Shown here piece after piece: positions 23,525-35,262 of a stretch of 48,934 nt of DNA. The notes under the pieces are model-generated. The model was not told where the DNA came from, searched no databases, and saw only the letters and a list, made by a program, of their open reading frames with translations. Both the position numbers and the translations under genes were made by a program. The stretch lies in contig JAHECY010000020.1 in NCBI GenBank assembly GCA_024641505.1, positions 1 to 48,934 of the forward strand, read 5' to 3'. Every line of letters starts with the position of its first letter. The first letter of the stretch is position 1. The stretch comes from Gammaproteobacteria bacterium (GTDB lineage: Bacteria > Pseudomonadota > Gammaproteobacteria > SG8-11).

Positions 23525-24145
23525 TCAAAACTCGAAACGCAAACTCATGAGGGCGACTTCGCCACCCAGGGCAACCGTATCGGTGTCCGCCGTCAGTTGC
23601 CGGCGCTCCAACTGCAGAAAGGTATGCGTGATACCGTAACCCGAGCGCATGTAAGCCGCGGCCCGGTGATCCAGAATATTCATATTGAACGCCAGCCCCG
23701 TGCGCAGCAAACGGCCCGTGACCCGGCCGCTTGCCTTTTCCTGGCCTACCACGATCTGCCGATAATAAAGCTGGGTGGCGCCGATAGCGACATAGGGCAC
23801 CAGCCATTGCCCGGCCGCAAATCTGGCATTCACTTGCAGTTGCGCGGATACCGGGTACAGCTCCAATTCAACGCTGCCCGCGTACGTGTTGTTACTGGCC
23901 AATATAGCGCGGCCTCTATCGTGCATCCGGCCGGCTTCCACACCCAGCTCCAGAAAGGAAAACCAGCGATATGCCATGGCCGCGCCGAAATACGGTGCCC
24001 GATCGCGCCCGTAATAGTCACGCCACTGGTCAAGCTCGGGGTAGTAACGTCCATACTGGAGTTCGGAAGACCATTGGGCGGCGACCGCGGCACAGGGGAA
24101 CACCGCATGCAGCAGCAGGAGTGTCAGTAAAATTTTCCGTTTCAT
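23525..24145 (-). CDS. Small outer-membrane beta-barrel protein, OmpW/OprF-like in outline
   Basis: ATG 24145 overlaps the stop of the upstream beta-helix gene as ATGA. The 206-residue product has a signal peptide (MKRKILLTLLLLHAVFPCAAVAA), alternating strands of 8-10 residues and a C-terminal phenylalanine (SLRFEF), the signature of BAM-inserted barrels. Six to eight strands can be counted. No defined family was recognised. Translational coupling with the CFI-box protein suggests a shared role in the cell envelope. Confidence 0.65.
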   Translation of the reverse strand: MKRKILLTLLLLHAVFPCAAVAAQWSSELQYGRYYPELDQWRDYYGRDRAPYFGAAMAYRWFSFLELGVEAGRMHDRGRAILASNNTYAGSVELELYPVSAQLQVNARFAAGQWLVPYVAIGATQLYYRQIVVGQEKASGRVTGRLLRTGLAFNMNILDHRAAAYMRSGYGITHTFLQLERRQLTADTDTVALGGEVALMSLRFEF

Positions 24146-25899
24146 GACGCCACCCCCTGCACATAACGCCGCCAAGGCAACACCCGGGCACCAACCATGG
24201 CCACCCCAACCAGAAAGCAGAGGCTGAATAACGGCCAATTGACCACGCACCAGGCCACCGCGATCAGGGGTGCCAGCAAAACGCGTACCGCTGGCTTAAA
24301 CTCCGCGTTTCGATGTAACCAACGCGCTGCTACCGGCCCCTGCCGGTAGTACCAGGCCACGAAGCTTCTGCCGGGAGCATACGGTAACAAGTATTGATCT
24401 CGAAACTGCCGAAGCGGTTTGATTTCACGAGCGTCATAATAGCCAAACGCCGCGGTGGCGATAAAACAGCCTTCGTTCGCCAGCTGTGGGTAAGGCTGTA
24501 GACGCTCCGGCGTACCGGTAACTGCCGCGGATCGGGCACCCTCCACTTTTTCACCGATCATGGCTTTTTGTTCCTGCGCAAAATCACTGTGAAACACTTC
24601 GCGGCCGGCAAGCAATTCCGGCGATGCTTCGACGACGACAGTCAAATAATAGTACTTGGCAGATAGCGCCGCCACCTCCAGCGAGTACTCCACGTCGTTG
24701 CGCAATCCCTTCAACGTATAGGAAGTGCCGTTGTCCACAACTACGGATTCTTCAGTGACGTTTGGCGCAACATAATACAAACGGTAGGCGCTGGCACCAG
24801 GCACCTCACTCCAGCTTACCGTCAACTCCTGTGATGCGGGTAGCACACCCGAAATTACCGGATCTCCAGGCACTGCAACCTCACCCGTCACCCCGTGCAC
24901 AATAAAACTGGTGGTCGGTGCCGCCACCTTGTCGGTGTTGGCATAGGGCGCACCGGATGTATCGCTATTGTAGTAAATCAGATAATTACCCGGATCCTTG
25001 GCACGCGTCACCAGATAACTGTTATTGGCGGACCAGTTCAAACTGATATCATAGGTACCGTTATTGGGAGTGACATCCCATTTGAGATTCTGTACCGGGT
25101 AAGGCAGGGGATCGGCATCCAACCCCCCATAGGCGCCGGCATCAAGAGTACTACCATCGATCGCATCGGTTGCGGGCGCCCCGGCCAAGTCAATACACAG
25201 GGAATTCTCCGCCAAATGAAAATCCCTGAGTTCCGGGTCGCCAGCGCCACTATTGGCATATCCCGGTTGCATGCTACTGGTCACTGCATGAGCGCCAGCC
25301 TCACCGTTATCCGTATTGCCGGCAAAACAATTATAGTTGATGCCGTCCGCGTTGGTGACGGTGATGGCACGACGGTTACCACTGAAAATATTGTATTCAA
25401 TTCGGGAGGTGCCGGTGGTGCGGCTGACACCGGTACCGTTACCATGAAAAGTGTTGTTGCGCACCATGGCGTCGGCGCTATCCTCGATCGAGACGCCCGT
25501 ACCGCCACTGTTCAACTGAAATATATTATTGGAAATCTTCACATCGCTGCTACCCCCACGTACCGTCACGCCGGTCTCGGCATTGACGACGGTGAGACGC
25601 AGCACTGTGACATTGGTCACGCCGTCGATAAGCAGCGCAGGTTGCCCGTTCTTTACGCCTTTCAGTATGGTACGCGCGGCTTCCGCGCCACGGAGCGTCA
25701 AAGAACTTTTCAGTTGCAGGTTGACGTCATAGGTGCCAACCGCGAAAACAATCACGTCGCCAGCGCTAGCGTCGTCAATAATTTTCTGAATTTCGGCGTT
25801 GTTGCTGTTTTTTGCTACATCGATTTGTTTTGCCGCGAAGACAGGGAAGGTAACCGCGACACATAAGCCCAGACAACTCATCCTTACGAATCCGTACAT
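24142..25899 (-). CDS. Secreted beta-helix/fibronectin III protein with CFI-box C-terminal domain
   Basis: The 585-residue protein has a signal peptide (to about residue 22), a right-handed parallel beta-helix of NosD-like repeats (about 30-240), two fibronectin III-like segments (about 255-440), then a CFI-box domain (GCFIATAAFGYYDA, C478) and two C-terminal hydrophobic helices (about 538-555 and 556-575) ended by an Arg-rich tail. The CFI-box plus hydrophobic helices and basic tail is a known C-terminal arrangement that I take to be a sorting or anchoring signal. The next gene (a small barrel) overlaps it by 4 bp. Confidence 0.8.
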   Translation of the reverse strand: MYGFVRMSCLGLCVAVTFPVFAAKQIDVAKNSNNAEIQKIIDDASAGDVIVFAVGTYDVNLQLKSSLTLRGAEAARTILKGVKNGQPALLIDGVTNVTVLRLTVVNAETGVTVRGGSSDVKISNNIFQLNSGGTGVSIEDSADAMVRNNTFHGNGTGVSRTTGTSRIEYNIFSGNRRAITVTNADGINYNCFAGNTDNGEAGAHAVTSSMQPGYANSGAGDPELRDFHLAENSLCIDLAGAPATDAIDGSTLDAGAYGGLDADPLPYPVQNLKWDVTPNNGTYDISLNWSANNSYLVTRAKDPGNYLIYYNSDTSGAPYANTDKVAAPTTSFIVHGVTGEVAVPGDPVISGVLPASQELTVSWSEVPGASAYRLYYVAPNVTEESVVVDNGTSYTLKGLRNDVEYSLEVAALSAKYYYLTVVVEASPELLAGREVFHSDFAQEQKAMIGEKVEGARSAAVTGTPERLQPYPQLANEGCFIATAAFGYYDAREIKPLRQFRDQYLLPYAPGRSFVAWYYRQGPVAARWLHRNAEFKPAVRVLLAPLIAVAWCVVNWPLFSLCFLVGVAMVGARVLPWRRYVQGVAS

Positions 25900-28815: not shown

Positions 28816-30372
28816 ATGTCGAAGCGAAGAAACCATGTTGTGAGTTTTGCCGGACGCTGGTCAGGGGCGCTCATGCTATTGACTATTATCACTGCTTGCA
28901 GCCATTTTTCGGGACCGATATCCGAATACAAATCGCTGCCCGAAATCAGTCTGACGTTCATCGCTGAACCGATACTCGACAGTCGGATACAAGTGCTGCA
29001 GGCAGGCTCGCCGGCGTTGCCACCCGTGGTATTGATACACGGCTTGGGTGACGAGGGCATGAACGACTGGAAACATCTGATACCCTTGCTCGCCGAACAC
29101 TACCATGTGCTGGCACTTGATCTGCCGGGGTTTGGCGCATCGGAACGGAAGAATGTTTTGTACAATATCGACAACTATGCGGATGTCGTGAAATGGCTGA
29201 TGGATACGCACAACCCGGCGCCCTATCACATCATCGGTCACTCCCTGGGCGGCGCCATCGCCATGCGCCTGGCGGCGAAATACCCCGCTCGCGTGGCAAC
29301 GATGATACTCGCGGATGTTGCAGGCATTTTGTACCGAACGACCATAACGGAATACATGTTCAGGTTCGACGAAGATCCCGGTGACTCAATCACCAGGATT
29401 TTCCAACCATTCACTAAAGGCTTGAACATGTTACTACGCTCCATGGCCGGCGGTTTTGGCGACATCCGTATACAAAATCGGTTACAGCGCATACTCCATG
29501 ACCCTGATTTACGACGTAAATACCTGCCCGCCGGCAGCAATGTAATCGCAGCTCTGGGACTGGTGTTGGACGACTTCAGCAAGGATCTGGATAATATCGA
29601 CCAGCCTACCTTAATCATCTGGAGCGATAACGATAACATCACCCCCCTGCGTACCGGAAAATTGCTCGAGCACAAACTAAAACATTCAAACTTGAAAATA
29701 ATTCATGACGGTGGTCATGCGCCCATGATCACCCGCCCGGAAACATTCAACCATCTGGTGTTGACCGCTTTGATATCCCCTCCCATGCGGTCTGCCCCGC
29801 TGATTCCTTTGCCGAGGATTTCGACCAATCCAGAACCCGCTTATTGTCTGTATCAGGACGAACCTGTAACTATTTCCGGAGAGTACGGGCATGTCACTAT
29901 CGATCATTGCCCCAATGTCACGTTGCGTAACCTGACCGCTCAACAAATAACCATCAACGAATCGACCGTGGAGATGGATAATATCAGCGTGGGGGGTAGT
30001 AGCTGGGGCATGCTGGTCACTGAATCCATCGTCACTATCCGGCGCAGCTATCTGTCCGGAGAATCCTTCGGCTTGCTGGCGGAAGAATCGCGTGTACAAA
30101 TCGAGCAAAGCGCAAGCCAGGGCTTCTGGTATGGCGCGATTCTGGCTGATTCAGTTGTGGATCTCACGGGCACCATCATCTCGGGCGATAACGCGTTACA
30201 TGTTATCGACAGCGAACTGCTGGCCACCGGCTGTGATTTACTGGGCAAGACCGCAGCCCTGTCCACCGCTTACCCGGCAACACTGATGTTTTCCGTCAGT
30301 CGCCTGCACAACAACCTTCAGGATAGTTACCTGCACGGCCCGGTCATAGTAACGCCGGAGAAAATACGATAA
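28816..30372 (+). CDS. Alpha/beta-hydrolase fused to a beta-helix-like tail (putative lipoprotein)
   Basis: The 518-residue protein has an N-terminal signal with ITAC (C28), then an alpha/beta-hydrolase (about 65-315) with HGLGDEG oxyanion region, nucleophile S143 in GHSLGGA, an acid in IIWSDNDN and catalytic H in GGHAPM. The C-terminal ~180 residues (340-518) consist of short beta-rungs (ITINESTVEMDNISV, SYLSGESFGLLAEESRVQIEQS) typical of a right-handed parallel beta-helix. A lipase or esterase acting on an envelope polymer is plausible, with the beta-helix binding a polysaccharide; both are inference. It is transcribed toward the diguanylate cyclase gene and converges with it. Confidence 0.8.
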   Translation: MSKRRNHVVSFAGRWSGALMLLTIITACSHFSGPISEYKSLPEISLTFIAEPILDSRIQVLQAGSPALPPVVLIHGLGDEGMNDWKHLIPLLAEHYHVLALDLPGFGASERKNVLYNIDNYADVVKWLMDTHNPAPYHIIGHSLGGAIAMRLAAKYPARVATMILADVAGILYRTTITEYMFRFDEDPGDSITRIFQPFTKGLNMLLRSMAGGFGDIRIQNRLQRILHDPDLRRKYLPAGSNVIAALGLVLDDFSKDLDNIDQPTLIIWSDNDNITPLRTGKLLEHKLKHSNLKIIHDGGHAPMITRPETFNHLVLTALISPPMRSAPLIPLPRISTNPEPAYCLYQDEPVTISGEYGHVTIDHCPNVTLRNLTAQQITINESTVEMDNISVGGSSWGMLVTESIVTIRRSYLSGESFGLLAEESRVQIEQSASQGFWYGAILADSVVDLTGTIISGDNALHVIDSELLATGCDLLGKTAALSTAYPATLMFSVSRLHNNLQDSYLHGPVIVTPEKIR

Positions 30373-30386
30373 ACGATCGACCGCCC

Positions 30387-31373
30387 TTAGTTTCTGACGC
30401 AATTGCGACCGGCACCTTTTGCCCGATACAACGCCGCATCCGCTCGCGCCAGCAACGTGGCGCCATCCTGGCCCGGCCCGAGTTGCGCCAAACCAATGGA
30501 CACCGTCACCGGTGACGACGGTTGTTGTTCCGAGCCACCGGGCACCTGTGCGGATACCGCTATGCGTATCCGCTCCGCCACATCGAGCGCTTCCGCGCCA
30601 TCAGTATCTGGCAACAGCGCGACAAATTCCTCGCCGCCATAACGCGCTGCCATGTCGGTAGGACGCAGTTGCCGCGTCAACGTTTGCGCCACGGCACTCA
30701 AGATCCGATCACCGGCCTGGTGCCCATACATATCGTTGTAGTTTTTAAAGTTATCGATATCAAGAATCAACAAACTCAATTTGGGATTACGCTGCACTAA
30801 GCGCGGCAGGGAATCGTTCAACCAGCGCCGATTGAACAATCCTGTCAAACAATCAATCTTGGCATCCTGCTCATAGGTACGCTGCATCTGGTAACTGTCA
30901 GACAGATTTCTTTGACCTTTACGAATACGCCCCGAGAGAATCAATAGCAGGTTGCGCGCAATGACATGCGAACGGTCGATCAAGGACCAGATATAGACAT
31001 CCTTGATCGCGAACAATAACGTATCGGTAGTTGCGACCACATGCGCAGACGCCGGCATTCCCTCGAGCACCGACATTTCACCCACACAATCGCCGGCTCT
31101 GATGATATCGAGGGTTTCCTCGCTCTCTCCTTCCAGTTGCACCACCAATTCACCACGCATCACCAGGTATAACAGGTGATTTATCTGGCCGGGCACGAAC
31201 AGCTTATCGCCGACAGCCAGTTTGCGGGTGGCACAGGCATCCAGTAACCAGTCGATAACTTCCGCATCTTCGCCGGCAAACACTCTCGTTTGTAACAAGT
31301 CCTGCAGGGTGACTAAACCCTCGGACCCCGAGGCGGCAGCATTACCGTACAATTCGGTATTATTAATTGTCAT
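30387..31373 (-). CDS. Diguanylate cyclase with N-terminal cyclic-nucleotide-binding-like domain
   Basis: ATG 31373 (MTINN) is preferred to the TTG 15 bases upstream. The 328-residue protein has a CNB-like domain (about 20-135) and a GGDEF domain (about 165-328) with the active-site motif GGEEF (246-250) and an RxxD inhibitory site (R237-D240) five residues before it. It therefore should make c-di-GMP and be inhibited by it. The CNB domain lacks the usual phosphate-binding Arg in its cassette (EGMPASAHV instead of an R-S/T-A motif), so it probably does not bind cAMP in the usual way. It could control the PilZ-bearing synthase encoded 1.4 kb away. Confidence 0.9.
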   Translation of the reverse strand: MTINNTELYGNAAASGSEGLVTLQDLLQTRVFAGEDAEVIDWLLDACATRKLAVGDKLFVPGQINHLLYLVMRGELVVQLEGESEETLDIIRAGDCVGEMSVLEGMPASAHVVATTDTLLFAIKDVYIWSLIDRSHVIARNLLLILSGRIRKGQRNLSDSYQMQRTYEQDAKIDCLTGLFNRRWLNDSLPRLVQRNPKLSLLILDIDNFKNYNDMYGHQAGDRILSAVAQTLTRQLRPTDMAARYGGEEFVALLPDTDGAEALDVAERIRIAVSAQVPGGSEQQPSSPVTVSIGLAQLGPGQDGATLLARADAALYRAKGAGRNCVRN

Positions 31374-31431
31374 GCCGATTTCTCCCAATCATGATTGGCG
31401 CAACCTGCAATGGACTCACCAAGATTCGTTA

Positions 31432-31713
31432 CTATTTCAACAAATCTCCAGGCAACGGTACGGCGGGAAGCTTTTCTAATGATTTCAGCACTTTTGCTGC
31501 ATTTATTTTCGGCGCTGTCTTGGCTACGCCCCCAATAACCGCGGTGGGATCGGGAACGGCAGGAACTACTTTGGCGGTTTCATTGACCACCTGGCCCGGA
31601 GATTTCACTGCCGGCACCGGCGGTACCGGTACACGGGGCACCATCGGAGCGTGGACGACTCGAACACAGGACACTAGAATTGCCGCAATGGCGACATGCA
31701 GTAAGGCTTTCAT
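31432..31713 (-). CDS. Small Pro/Val-rich lipoprotein
   Basis: ATG 31713 has AGGAG 6 bases upstream. The 93-residue product has a signal ending in ILVSC (C16) and a mature part rich in Pro, Val and Lys (VPRVPVPPVPAVK). No domain is recognised. It lies between the BcsS-like gene and the diguanylate cyclase gene, 58 bp before the cyclase start, so it may be co-transcribed with it. An envelope spacer or scaffold role is a guess. Confidence 0.6.
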   Translation of the reverse strand: MKALLHVAIAAILVSCVRVVHAPMVPRVPVPPVPAVKSPGQVVNETAKVVPAVPDPTAVIGGVAKTAPKINAAKVLKSLEKLPAVPLPGDLLK

Positions 31714-32020
31714 AACCGGCTCCTGGGGTGTCAGTTGAAAAATAGTGCAGCATACGCGAATACTTTTCAAGCGACCAATCATTGTGCGGTAATCCGCCCC
31801 GCGCCAAAAAGCATTCAAAAACCGTTCCGCATCTCTTCTTTACCCGTGCACCCGTATGGCTTTATATCGTACCCATGCGGATGGACAAACAATGATGCTT
31901 ACCACCCATAAACGGTGCTGCCGGAATAAATTCGGTAAATCATCGCGCGATGGCCTCGCAAGTATCGCGCCAATATTCGCACTCGCGAACCCTGGGCTCC
32001 AATACCGGACGGGGTGCCGG
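31714..32020. other. Gap between the lipoprotein gene and the bcsS-like gene
   Basis: This 307-bp stretch is free of convincing ORFs and of strong hairpins. It should include the promoter of the small lipoprotein gene. Nothing else stands out. Confidence 0.3.
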
Positions 32021-32731
32021 CTAATTCGTCGACTGCACGTAGACGAGCTCCACGGCGAGGTAGGCGACGGCATCCAAATCCCGGGCCTGACTGACGCCCA
32101 ATCCGAGATTCATACTGAGACCGCTGCCGATATTAAAACCGTCCACGGCATATCCCAACTTGTTGATATGATAATCCGGGCCGCCACTGGCAACCAGCGC
32201 CAAACCATGACGCAGACCGTCCCCAGGGGCGGCCTTACTGCCCTTGACGCGCAGCCAATAACTGTCGGGGCCGATTTCATAACTGTAATTCTCGTCGCTG
32301 CGCCAACCTTCCGGCCACAGCTGGTAGGCTTCGGCAAGCAAAGTGAAGCCGGAATGCGAACCGCTGTTATCGGCACCGGGTTGATCCGGCGACAATCGAG
32401 TACGGCGTTGCCCTAGACCACCATACAAGGACCAGGCTCCATTGGCCGTGGGCATTTTATAGCCTAACGCCAATTGCGCGCCGGGAGCGATGGCCGTGAC
32501 CGTGGTTTCATTTACCTTGTATTGGTACTGCAGTCGATCCGCCCACACCCTGCCCTGCAATCCTGAGCCCAAGGTGCCGGAGCCCAGGGGAATAAGCCCG
32601 CCCGCAAAGACATAGCTGCCCTGACCGGCGAACTCCGCGCCGCTGAGCGCCACCCATTCCTGCGCATGCGCGGGTACCGCATACGCCATACCAAGAGTCA
32701 GGGCCCAAACATACTTTCTGTTAATCTTCAT
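32021..32731 (-). CDS. bcsS: BcsS-like outer-membrane protein of cellulose biosynthesis
   Basis: The 236-residue product has a signal peptide (MKINRKYVWALTLGMAYAVPAHA) and a beta-barrel pattern of about ten strands with alternating aromatic/small residues (GSGLQGRVWADRLQYQY, GLALVASGGPDYHIN). It resembles the BcsS family found in some cellulose operons. Its gene begins 10 bp after the stop of the cellulose synthase-like gene, so they form an operon. A role as an outer-membrane glucan-secretion or modification factor is inferred from that pairing. Confidence 0.65.
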   Translation of the reverse strand: MKINRKYVWALTLGMAYAVPAHAQEWVALSGAEFAGQGSYVFAGGLIPLGSGTLGSGLQGRVWADRLQYQYKVNETTVTAIAPGAQLALGYKMPTANGAWSLYGGLGQRRTRLSPDQPGADNSGSHSGFTLLAEAYQLWPEGWRSDENYSYEIGPDSYWLRVKGSKAAPGDGLRHGLALVASGGPDYHINKLGYAVDGFNIGSGLSMNLGLGVSQARDLDAVAYLAVELVYVQSTN

Positions 32732-32741
32732 TCCACAAACC

Positions 32742-34988
32742 TTAGCCCGTTGTCACGCTTACCGGTACCGGCACGCTCTTGGGTAACGAGGCGTAGCGGC
32801 TGAACTCCGAGGCATAAAAAACACCATAGTCAGTTTGCACCTGCTGCACGTTGCTCAATTGTCCGCGCACCCGCCCGTTTTCACCGATACCCAAAGGCTG
32901 ACAGAAAAATTCAGCGGCCGCCGCGGGTTGTTCCACGGTCAGCAAGCGTGCCGCATGACGACCGTTGCCTGATGGAAACAGCACCCCCAACTGCAGCCGC
33001 CCTGACGCGTCAGCGCTGTCATAATAGACCGGCATCCAGGCATTGTTATAAGTCATGGCACCGTTACCGGGTGCGCTACGATCCATCAATTTACGCATGC
33101 GCCCAATCGGCGTCAGCGCCTGTTCATGCAACCCCAGCATTCGCCATTGGACATCGGTGCCGAACAGGAATTTCTCCATCTCATCCTGATCTCGCGCGGA
33201 TTGCCAGCTGATTTGCATTCCATATTCATGCAACCCGGTGGTCTGCTCATAGCGATCCGGCTCGACATTACTGCGCACCTCGGTGTGCGGCACAAGAGGC
33301 GTGCGATAACATACCCGGCCCTTCAGATAGACTTTGCGTCCCGGCAGAAATATTTCGCCCATCACTTCCTGCTGCGGCCGAAGCTCCCGGTCACACACAA
33401 AGGCGGCGCCACTGGACGAGACATTGCCTATCACTCCCGGCAGTGCCTGCCCTAAGTCATCGATCACCTGTCCCGTCAGCGGTACTTCAAAGCGATATTC
33501 GCGGCGTCGGTGCCGGCGCCGCAAAGTAAAGCGCGTCACGAAACCCGCCAAGCCCAAGTTGATGGTCGCCCAGACTACGTTTACCCACAACGCCATGGGC
33601 GTGAGATGCTGATAATTCACCCATAACACGATACCCGCGACAATGGCAAATAAACTGGCGACCAGAATCCCAATTTGCGGCATTACCTGCGCCCGGTCGT
33701 CCCCGCTGTCGTGATTCTTGTCGGTGACGCGGAACCCTTTATCGCTGTTGCTAAACAAGCCCAGGGTCGCCTGAGCAAAGGTGGCAAAACGGGCCATATT
33801 AAACTCTTCCGTGAACACGGAACGCCCGTAGCCACGACCGACTTCCTCATACGCCCAGAAACACAAAAAGTAGTAAGGAAGGAAATATGCCAGATACTCC
33901 AAACCCAGCACATTGATCGGAAGAATTCCGGTAATCAATACCACCACCGGCGCGATATAAAACACCAATTTCTGCCACCCGTCAAAATAGGTGGACACGG
34001 AAGCCAGATAGTTAACACGCTGCGCCAGGGTCAGCCCGCGGCCAAACACGATGCCTTCCTTACGCCACACCTGCATGGCACCCTGCCCCCAACGTTTGCG
34101 TTGCACCAGAAACTCCCGAATGGAATCCGGCGCCACGCCAAAGGCCAGACTTTCGGGGTAATACACGGATTTAAAGCCGCGCTTGTGCAATCGTATGGAG
34201 GTATGCAGATCCTCGGTGATGGTACCGGTCGCAAAACCGTCAATACTATCCAGCGCGGACCGCCGAATCACGGCGCAACTGCCGCAGAAAAACGCCGCGT
34301 TCCAATAATCCTTGCCCCGCTGTATGACCCGAAAGAACAGAGACTGCTCGGTCCACACAAAATTTAATCGCTTGTGCTTACGATGCTGAAACGAATCCAG
34401 ATTATAGAAATCCTGAGGCGTCTGCACAAATGCGACGCGTGGATCACTGAAAAAACCCAGCGTCTTAGTTAAAAAGGAACGACCCGGCACATGGTCCGCA
34501 TCGAAGATGGCAACAAACTCCCCGTCGGCATGGCACAAGGCATTGTTCAAATTCCCGGCCTTGGCATGTTCGTTGTTGGTACGCGCCAGATACCTGCAGC
34601 CAAACTGCTGGGCCAGAGCACGCAATTCCGGTCGATCGCCATCATCCAGCAACCAGGTGACATGTGGATAATCGATACGGCAGGCGGCGGCCACCGTGTG
34701 GCGTACCAGATCCAGACTTTCGTTGTAAGTCGGGATAAAGACATCGACTGACAAATCCCTGGGCGCCGGCAATGATTGCGGATCAGTGGCGCGAAACACC
34801 ATAAATATATGCATCACCGCGGTGAGGTAGCCAAACACCTCGGCACCCCAGATCAGCCAGGAAAAAAACAATGCATCAGGATTAAACGTGCCCAGTCGCC
34901 AATACAAATAATATGGCGCGTAGATCAGGAAACTGAAAACCACCCATTGGCTTGCCCGCCCCAAGGACTTCCCAGGCGCTGCCACCAT
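32742..34988 (-). CDS. bcsA: Cellulose synthase-like glycosyltransferase 2 with PilZ domain (BcsA-like)
   Basis: ATG 34988 is preferred (GGGGAG 5 bases upstream) over an in-frame GTG two codons earlier; 748 residues. The GT2 domain has D115/D116, D163-A-D165, the TED motif (258-260) and QRKRW (296-300). The gating loop FRVTDK (419-424) fits the BcsA FxVTxK motif. Four or more membrane helices flank the catalytic domain, and a PilZ domain (about 488-600) has an Arg-rich start (LRRRHRRR) and NVSSSG, consistent with c-di-GMP binding. A ~150-residue tail of unknown function follows. It would make a beta-glucan; cellulose itself is unproven. No bcsB, bcsZ or bcsC is adjacent. Confidence 0.9.
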   Translation of the reverse strand: MVAAPGKSLGRASQWVVFSFLIYAPYYLYWRLGTFNPDALFFSWLIWGAEVFGYLTAVMHIFMVFRATDPQSLPAPRDLSVDVFIPTYNESLDLVRHTVAAACRIDYPHVTWLLDDGDRPELRALAQQFGCRYLARTNNEHAKAGNLNNALCHADGEFVAIFDADHVPGRSFLTKTLGFFSDPRVAFVQTPQDFYNLDSFQHRKHKRLNFVWTEQSLFFRVIQRGKDYWNAAFFCGSCAVIRRSALDSIDGFATGTITEDLHTSIRLHKRGFKSVYYPESLAFGVAPDSIREFLVQRKRWGQGAMQVWRKEGIVFGRGLTLAQRVNYLASVSTYFDGWQKLVFYIAPVVVLITGILPINVLGLEYLAYFLPYYFLCFWAYEEVGRGYGRSVFTEEFNMARFATFAQATLGLFSNSDKGFRVTDKNHDSGDDRAQVMPQIGILVASLFAIVAGIVLWVNYQHLTPMALWVNVVWATINLGLAGFVTRFTLRRRHRRREYRFEVPLTGQVIDDLGQALPGVIGNVSSSGAAFVCDRELRPQQEVMGEIFLPGRKVYLKGRVCYRTPLVPHTEVRSNVEPDRYEQTTGLHEYGMQISWQSARDQDEMEKFLFGTDVQWRMLGLHEQALTPIGRMRKLMDRSAPGNGAMTYNNAWMPVYYDSADASGRLQLGVLFPSGNGRHAARLLTVEQPAAAAEFFCQPLGIGENGRVRGQLSNVQQVQTDYGVFYASEFSRYASLPKSVPVPVSVTTG

Positions 34989-35262
34989 ATCCACTCCCCG
35001 TTTTTTATGCCATTGACCAACGATTTAACCGCTAAATGCCGTTAAGTGTAGACAGATGCACCATCATTGTAAAAGCAAATTTTACAATAAGCCGGGGAGC
35101 CGATCCGAACTAATGACAACTAGCGGACAATAACCGAACATGACCGTTGGCGAGTGCAACAAATCCGTGGCGTCGAATCCAGCAAAAAGAATATTTTAGT
35201 CCTGATGACCGCGCCCACACCCCTCCATCCCCTCCCGCCCTAACCTGGCAAGCCAGATGACA
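34989..35262. promoter_or_regulatory. bcsA promoter region with a 9-bp inverted repeat
   Basis: A perfect inverted repeat, ATTGTAAAA-GCAAA-TTTTACAAT (35066-35074 and 35080-35088), lies about 80 bp upstream of the bcsA start. It has no GC stem, so it is more likely an operator than a terminator. No -35/-10 pair was assigned. The rest of the gap carries no ORF. Confidence 0.45.

Follow-up and report, generated by a model that had tools for sequence, protein, structure and literature searches.

How can a cellulose-type synthase make and release its polymer where the genes for BcsB and BcsC are missing? The question is raised by a 48,934-nucleotide stretch of DNA from a Gammaproteobacteria bacterium of lineage SG8-11 (GenBank assembly GCA_024641505.1, 4.78 Mb and 99.5% complete; contig 8, JAHECY010000020.1, positions 1 to 48,934 of the forward strand; hereafter the window), in which a bcsA-type synthase gene is followed directly by a bcsS-like gene. 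Our analysis indicates that the two genes probably constitute a BcsB-independent, cyclic di-GMP (c-di-GMP)-controlled unit for the synthesis and secretion of a β-glucan, most likely cellulose, whose exit is aided by BcsS. The features of the pair are:

32742 to 34994, minus strand: bcsA-type synthase gene ('type A'), 750 aa from a GTG or 748 aa from the ATG at 34988; two N-terminal transmembrane (TM) helices, GT2 domain, four TM helices with gating loop, PilZ domain and C-terminal β-rich domain.
33717 to 33734, minus strand: gating-loop motif FRVTDK of the synthase (residues 421-426).
33387 to 33512, minus strand: predicted c-di-GMP-binding PilZ stretch of the synthase (residues 495-536; RxxxR at 497-501, NxSxxG at 524-529).
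32021 to 32731, minus strand: bcsS, 236 aa, with a signal peptide and a predicted 12-stranded outer-membrane β-barrel; it starts 10 bp after the bcsA stop codon.

The first-pass annotation of this DNA had described a synthase with all catalytic motifs, a gating loop and a PilZ domain, separated from a BcsS-like gene by 10 bp; motif reading and Pfam searches bore out the description of the enzyme, and the gap proved exact. Translation of the synthase likely starts at the ATG at 34988, which is preceded by the ribosome-binding site GGGGAG. The protein matched the Pfam families GT2, Cellulose_synt and PilZ, and displays the full set of classical BcsA motifs, i.e. the GT2 motifs (LDDG at residue 116, DADH at 165, EDLHT at 261), QxxRW (QRKRW at 298), the FxVTxK gate and the PilZ motifs (R497xxxR501 and NVSSSG at 524). 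The closest PDB structures to its AlphaFold2 (AF2) model (predicted local distance difference test, pLDDT, 89) were E. coli and R. sphaeroides BcsA. Comparison with the NCBIfam cellulose synthase family TIGR03030 resulted in 449.9 bits, under the cut-off of 699.1 bits, placing the synthase as a relative of this curated family outside its limits. In 51 aligned relatives the catalytic residues D117-D118, D165, D167, E261-D262 and Q298-R301-W302 are invariant, as are the gate residues F421-V423-K426 and the PilZ residues R497, R501 and G529. Among 74 full-length synthases, DDG was retained in 74, DADH in 70, ED-HT in 68, QxxRW in 73, FxVTxK in 73 and the PilZ pair in 69.

We then asked whether the missing subunits are encoded elsewhere. 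Profile searches of the whole host genome for BcsB (PF03170), the BcsC barrel (PF05420) and GH8/BcsZ (PF01270) yielded no match, with the E. coli positive control matched in each case; the absence that the first-pass annotation had noted in the neighbourhood thus extends to the genome, and the search for bcsB and bcsC that it had proposed came back empty. The second strong BcsA-like match of this genome (C115, L034:7682-10468) was rejected as a candidate bcsB-linked synthase, being a GH17-GT2 fusion of cyclic-glucan type that resembles the pseudomonad NdvB-type 'orphan' synthases. We extended the comparison to 80 related loci, collected from named genomes in a scan that used aligned BcsB-free synthases as the query. 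None of the 80 carries bcsB, bcsZ or bcsC within 6 kb of the synthase gene. Full-length BcsB occurs in 6 of 79 relatives' whole genomes and in none of the other 73, and in all six the adjacent synthase is a second, classical-scoring BcsA that does not belong to the window clade; in three Aquificaceae genomes the BcsB match was confined to a short fragment of about 60-80 residues. A bcsB-bcsZ-bcsC set co-varying with this bcsA would have undercut the first reading of the locus; none was found in the 79 genomes or in the host's own. Absence of BcsB is therefore not a local loss, and a classical bcsA-bcsB-bcsZ-bcsC-like operon in a member of the same bacterial family (G003) shows that classical bcs operons exist close by in the tree.

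Phylogenetic analysis of 61 proteins placed the 43 sampled synthases in one group (96/94), apart from both classical BcsA and BgsA. Classical BcsA, including the proteins from bcsA-bcsB-bcsS-bcsZ operons, formed a group of its own (100/99), and the window synthase fell outside the classical BcsA clade and outside the BgsA clade. The two kinds of synthase also differ in anatomy: 100-132 residues precede DDG in type A, versus 154-310 in BcsB-dependent BcsA, and the alignment of type A to E. coli BcsA begins only at E. coli residue 202, within TM3. The AF2 model of the window synthase has two helices before the GT domain and four after it. Judged from alignment and model, the synthase is without TM1-2 of classical BcsA and does not possess the TM1-3 groove. 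In E. coli, cryo-electron microscopy located the BcsB tail anchor in the groove of BcsA TM1-3, and classical BcsA requires at least this tail anchor in vitro (PMC11470070). The lack of BcsB together with the loss of two of the three groove helices fits, on anatomical grounds, an enzyme independent of BcsB.

The pairing of the synthase with bcsS was found to be widespread. PF17036 (CBP_BcsS) scored above its cut-off in 8 of 369 gammaproteobacterial genomes; six of these (G000, G001, G086, G151, G209 and G335) have the two-gene arrangement bcsA-bcsS and no BcsB anywhere, G086 being a single-contig genome, and the other two have bcsA-bcsB-bcsS-bcsZ. The 80 loci come mostly from Gamma- and Betaproteobacteria (Thioalkalivibrio, Thiobacillus, Sulfuriferula, Cupriavidus, Rhizobacter, Jeongeupia) and also cover Caulobacter, Aquificaceae, Nitrospirota and Desulfobulbaceae, so that the unit is present in at least four phyla: Pseudomonadota, Aquificota, Nitrospirota and Desulfobacterota. 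No relatives were found in viral contigs. bcsS lies immediately 3′ of the synthase gene at 65 of the 73 loci with downstream sequence, the remaining seven of the 80 ending at a contig edge; one exception is L086, with bcsS at a distance of about 4 kb. At two Rhizobacter loci (L074:8203-8859 and L075:8060-8884) the synthase gene is followed by a gene for another small secreted barrel-like protein, which apparently replaces BcsS; the L074 protein has no Pfam match. In the congener G001 (L032:14589-19999) two synthase copies flank bcsS in the order bcsA-bcsS-bcsA, and a similar order was seen in L135 of Nitrospirota. The first-pass description of a minimal locus therefore holds for the two-gene core, which is real, whereas its purely local framing gives way to a widespread system.

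Assignment of the second gene to the BcsS family is supported by its match to PF17036 (62.6 bits, 5.4e-17, cut-off 24) and by its linkage to a bcsA-type gene. Its AF2 model, built from 59 sequences (pLDDT 94), predicts a signal peptide and 12 strands that close a barrel, and the closest solved folds in the PDB are the barrels KdgM, OmpG, NalP, intimin and FapF, at 7-14% identity. The stop and start codons overlap as ATGA in 20 of 49 measured bcsA-bcsS pairs, and bcsS is usually translationally coupled to the synthase gene. In the two gammaproteobacterial bcsA-bcsB-bcsS-bcsZ operons BcsS is present and BcsC is absent from the operon, which supports an outer-membrane role of BcsS in export. The alphaproteobacterial bcsS genes precede bcsA-bcsB-bcsZ, and weak BcsC-like matches follow downstream, so BcsS does not simply stand in for BcsC in every case. 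Further alphaproteobacterial PF17036 proteins are encoded apart from recognised bcs genes (L177, L179, L181 and L188), and the family is thus wider than its name. We found no paper that addresses the function of BcsS or describes bcsA-bcsS pairs without BcsB; an earlier mention is possible.

Taken together, the gene pairing, the absence of BcsB, BcsC and BcsZ, the conserved motifs, the separate clade and the missing N-terminal helices are the observations behind the unit that we favour, to which modelling adds the predicted barrel form of BcsS; from these we infer BcsB-free activity, a cellulose product, export via BcsS and control by c-di-GMP. The synthase would polymerise UDP-glucose at the cytosolic face and move the chain across the membrane via its own helices, with PilZ domain and gating loop rendering it responsive to c-di-GMP. 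Without the TM1-2 that form the BcsB-anchor groove with TM3, it is predicted to be active in the absence of BcsB, and the BcsS barrel would assume the outer-membrane role of BcsC as an exit channel or anchoring site. Whether these synthases are a distinct, widespread PilZ cellulose-type family without BcsB and its docking helices, with BcsS as sole dedicated partner, which would make the pair a candidate for the smallest glucan secretion system of Gram-negative bacteria, accompanied in some lineages by Fap-type amyloid genes, we regard as an evenly balanced proposition. BcsB is held necessary for bacterial cellulose synthase activity, and this clade makes the reason for that need directly testable; likewise the pair makes testable by what means a polymer passes the outer membrane via a small barrel in place of BcsC, gives BcsS a testable role, and is simple enough as a two-gene system for reconstitution.

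Several points weigh against BcsB-free synthesis with exit through BcsS. The equivalent of R. sphaeroides E371, the Glu of the autoinhibitory salt bridge, is present in 11 of the 12 classical BcsA examined; in this clade the position is mostly Ala or Ser, with an acidic residue (Glu or Asp) in just 8 of 81 members (Asp290 in the window synthase), and c-di-GMP gating may therefore differ in detail. A barrel of 12 strands, as modelled, could prove too narrow or plugged, a linked TPR-type protein to bridge the periplasm is lacking, and the relatives are mostly draft or metagenome genomes, in which single absences are weak. A partner that is both unlinked and unrecognised may also exist. Dependence of the synthase on such a periplasmic or single-TM protein, so diverged that the BcsB profile misses it, is in our judgment rather unlikely: the in vitro requirement of classical BcsA for the tail anchor speaks for it, as do cyanobacterial BcsB-less synthases with a HlyD-like, sometimes unlinked partner (PMC12430437), whereas the missing anchor-groove helices and the negative BcsB search of the host genome speak against it. 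Moreover, among the 80 loci there is no third gene that accompanies the pair in every lineage, unlinked HlyD proteins not having been searched for. The different periplasmic partner suggested by the first-pass annotation has no linked candidate, the sole conserved partner being BcsS, a predicted outer-membrane barrel.

The product and the task of BcsS deserve the same scrutiny. In line with the different β-glucan raised by the first-pass annotation, the same BcsB-free synthase might make a mixed-linkage glucan, a β-1,3-glucan or another hexose polymer, by analogy with BgsA, likewise a BcsB-free enzyme. The distance of the clade from classical BcsA, the low TIGR03030 score, the QTPQ that the clade shares with BgsA in place of QTPH, and the lack of a linked cellulase gene or any GH8 in the genome all speak for this, but the FFCGS, DADH and TED-HTS motifs are of the cellulose synthase type, in contrast to FCCGS and DADF in BgsA, and the top structural matches are cellulose synthases; we consider a non-cellulose product possible, with perhaps a one-in-several prospect. 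Somewhat less doubtful is that BcsS, instead of exporting the polymer, anchors or modifies it as an outer-membrane enzyme or structural barrel: some of its low-identity PDB matches are non-transporting barrels, and in Alphaproteobacteria it may occur together with a BcsC-like protein, and paralogues lie away from recognised bcs genes. Export through BcsS is favoured over this by the tight pairing and coupling with the synthase, by the two gammaproteobacterial operons with BcsS and no BcsC, and by the sugar- or polymer-translocating KdgM, NalP and FapF among its nearest folds. A decayed remnant of a cellulose operon, as the missing essential subunits bcsB, bcsZ and bcsC might suggest, is highly improbable and largely refuted by conservation, since the residues of catalysis, gate and PilZ domain do not vary among the 51 relatives, the clade is deep, separate and spread over several phyla, and the congener has two copies.

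Two further genes follow bcsS on the same (minus) strand, as the first-pass annotation had stated:

31432 to 31713, minus strand: Pro/Val-rich lipoprotein, 93 aa, recognised from its translation and lipobox LVSC.
30387 to 31373, minus strand: diguanylate cyclase with cNMP-binding and GGDEF domains (PF00990, 147.8 bits; PF00027, 51.6 bits).

The lipoprotein had no match in Pfam or NCBIfam. The cyclase displays a GGEEF active site and an RPTD I-site (RxxD), and from its sequence is a possible source of c-di-GMP for the synthase. Their inclusion in the locus was not borne out: in the window a gap of 307 bp parts them from the upstream bcsS, and the congener has four genes, three on the opposite strand, in the roughly 4.8 kb that separate the lipoprotein (L032:9551-9808) and the adjoining cyclase orthologue from its second bcsA copy. 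This layout and the other loci rule out membership of the bcsA-bcsS unit; the lipoprotein and cyclase genes are a separate pair, not conserved with bcsA-bcsS beyond the genus. GGDEF domains numbered 9 in the 0.41 Mb flanking 37 loci, versus about 3 expected from the genome average of about 7 per Mb, an enrichment that is weak and partly due to related loci.

Two other sets of neighbours suggest an extracellular matrix. FapD-like C39 peptidase genes stand beside bcsA-bcsS at ten loci (Aquificaceae, Acidithiobacillus-like and Nitrospirota), several of which also have FapF-like transporter or FapB-like repeat genes; the Fap functional-amyloid-like loci include L117, L118, L124, L126, L128, L077, L086 and L135. 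PEP-CTERM family proteins are encoded near the pair at 21 mostly betaproteobacterial loci (L064, L065, L070, L081, L087, L093, L098, L129 and 13 others). The window itself encodes a NosD/β-helix and fn3 protein that carries the motif CFIATAAFGYY and has a hydrophobic C-terminus (24142-25899; orthologue in the congener) and an α/β hydrolase with a C-terminal β-helix-like repeat extension (28816-30372), whose gene adjoins the cyclase gene in both genus members.

Compared with known systems, the window synthase shares with classical BcsA-BcsB (R. sphaeroides, E. coli; types I-III) the GT2 core, the D,D,D,QxxRW, TED and FxVTxK gate motifs and the PilZ motifs, at a fold TM-score of about 0.70, but its separate clade has no BcsB, BcsZ or BcsC, no TM1-2, has mostly lost the regulatory Glu, and continues after QxxRW with WGQGAMQ-type sequence instead of WA(R/Q)GMxQ. 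Cyanobacterial type IV/XcsA is likewise a PilZ-containing BcsA without BcsB (PMC12430437), but its partner is the HlyD-like adaptor XcsB with TolC, whereas the linked partner here is an outer-membrane barrel and no recurring HlyD gene was noted at the loci. The mixed-linkage glucan synthase BgsA of Sinorhizobium is also BcsB-free, c-di-GMP-responsive and a GT2 enzyme with a gate motif; it differs in lacking PilZ (PMC5567048), in its FCCGS and DADF motifs, in its clade, and in having an upstream periplasmic-adaptor gene of which the window has no counterpart. The GH17-GT2 'orphan' BcsA-like synthases, proposed to make cyclic β-1,3-glucan (PMC10237404) and represented in the host genome by C115, share a BcsA-like GT2 without BcsB, but have a fused GH17 domain and neither PilZ nor BcsS. 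The bcsA-bcsB-bcsS-bcsZ operons of two gammaproteobacterial genomes and the bcsS-bcsA-bcsB-bcsZ operons of Alphaproteobacteria also place a PF17036 BcsS beside a cellulose synthase, but the BcsA of these operons is classical by grouping or by score and is accompanied by BcsB and BcsZ.

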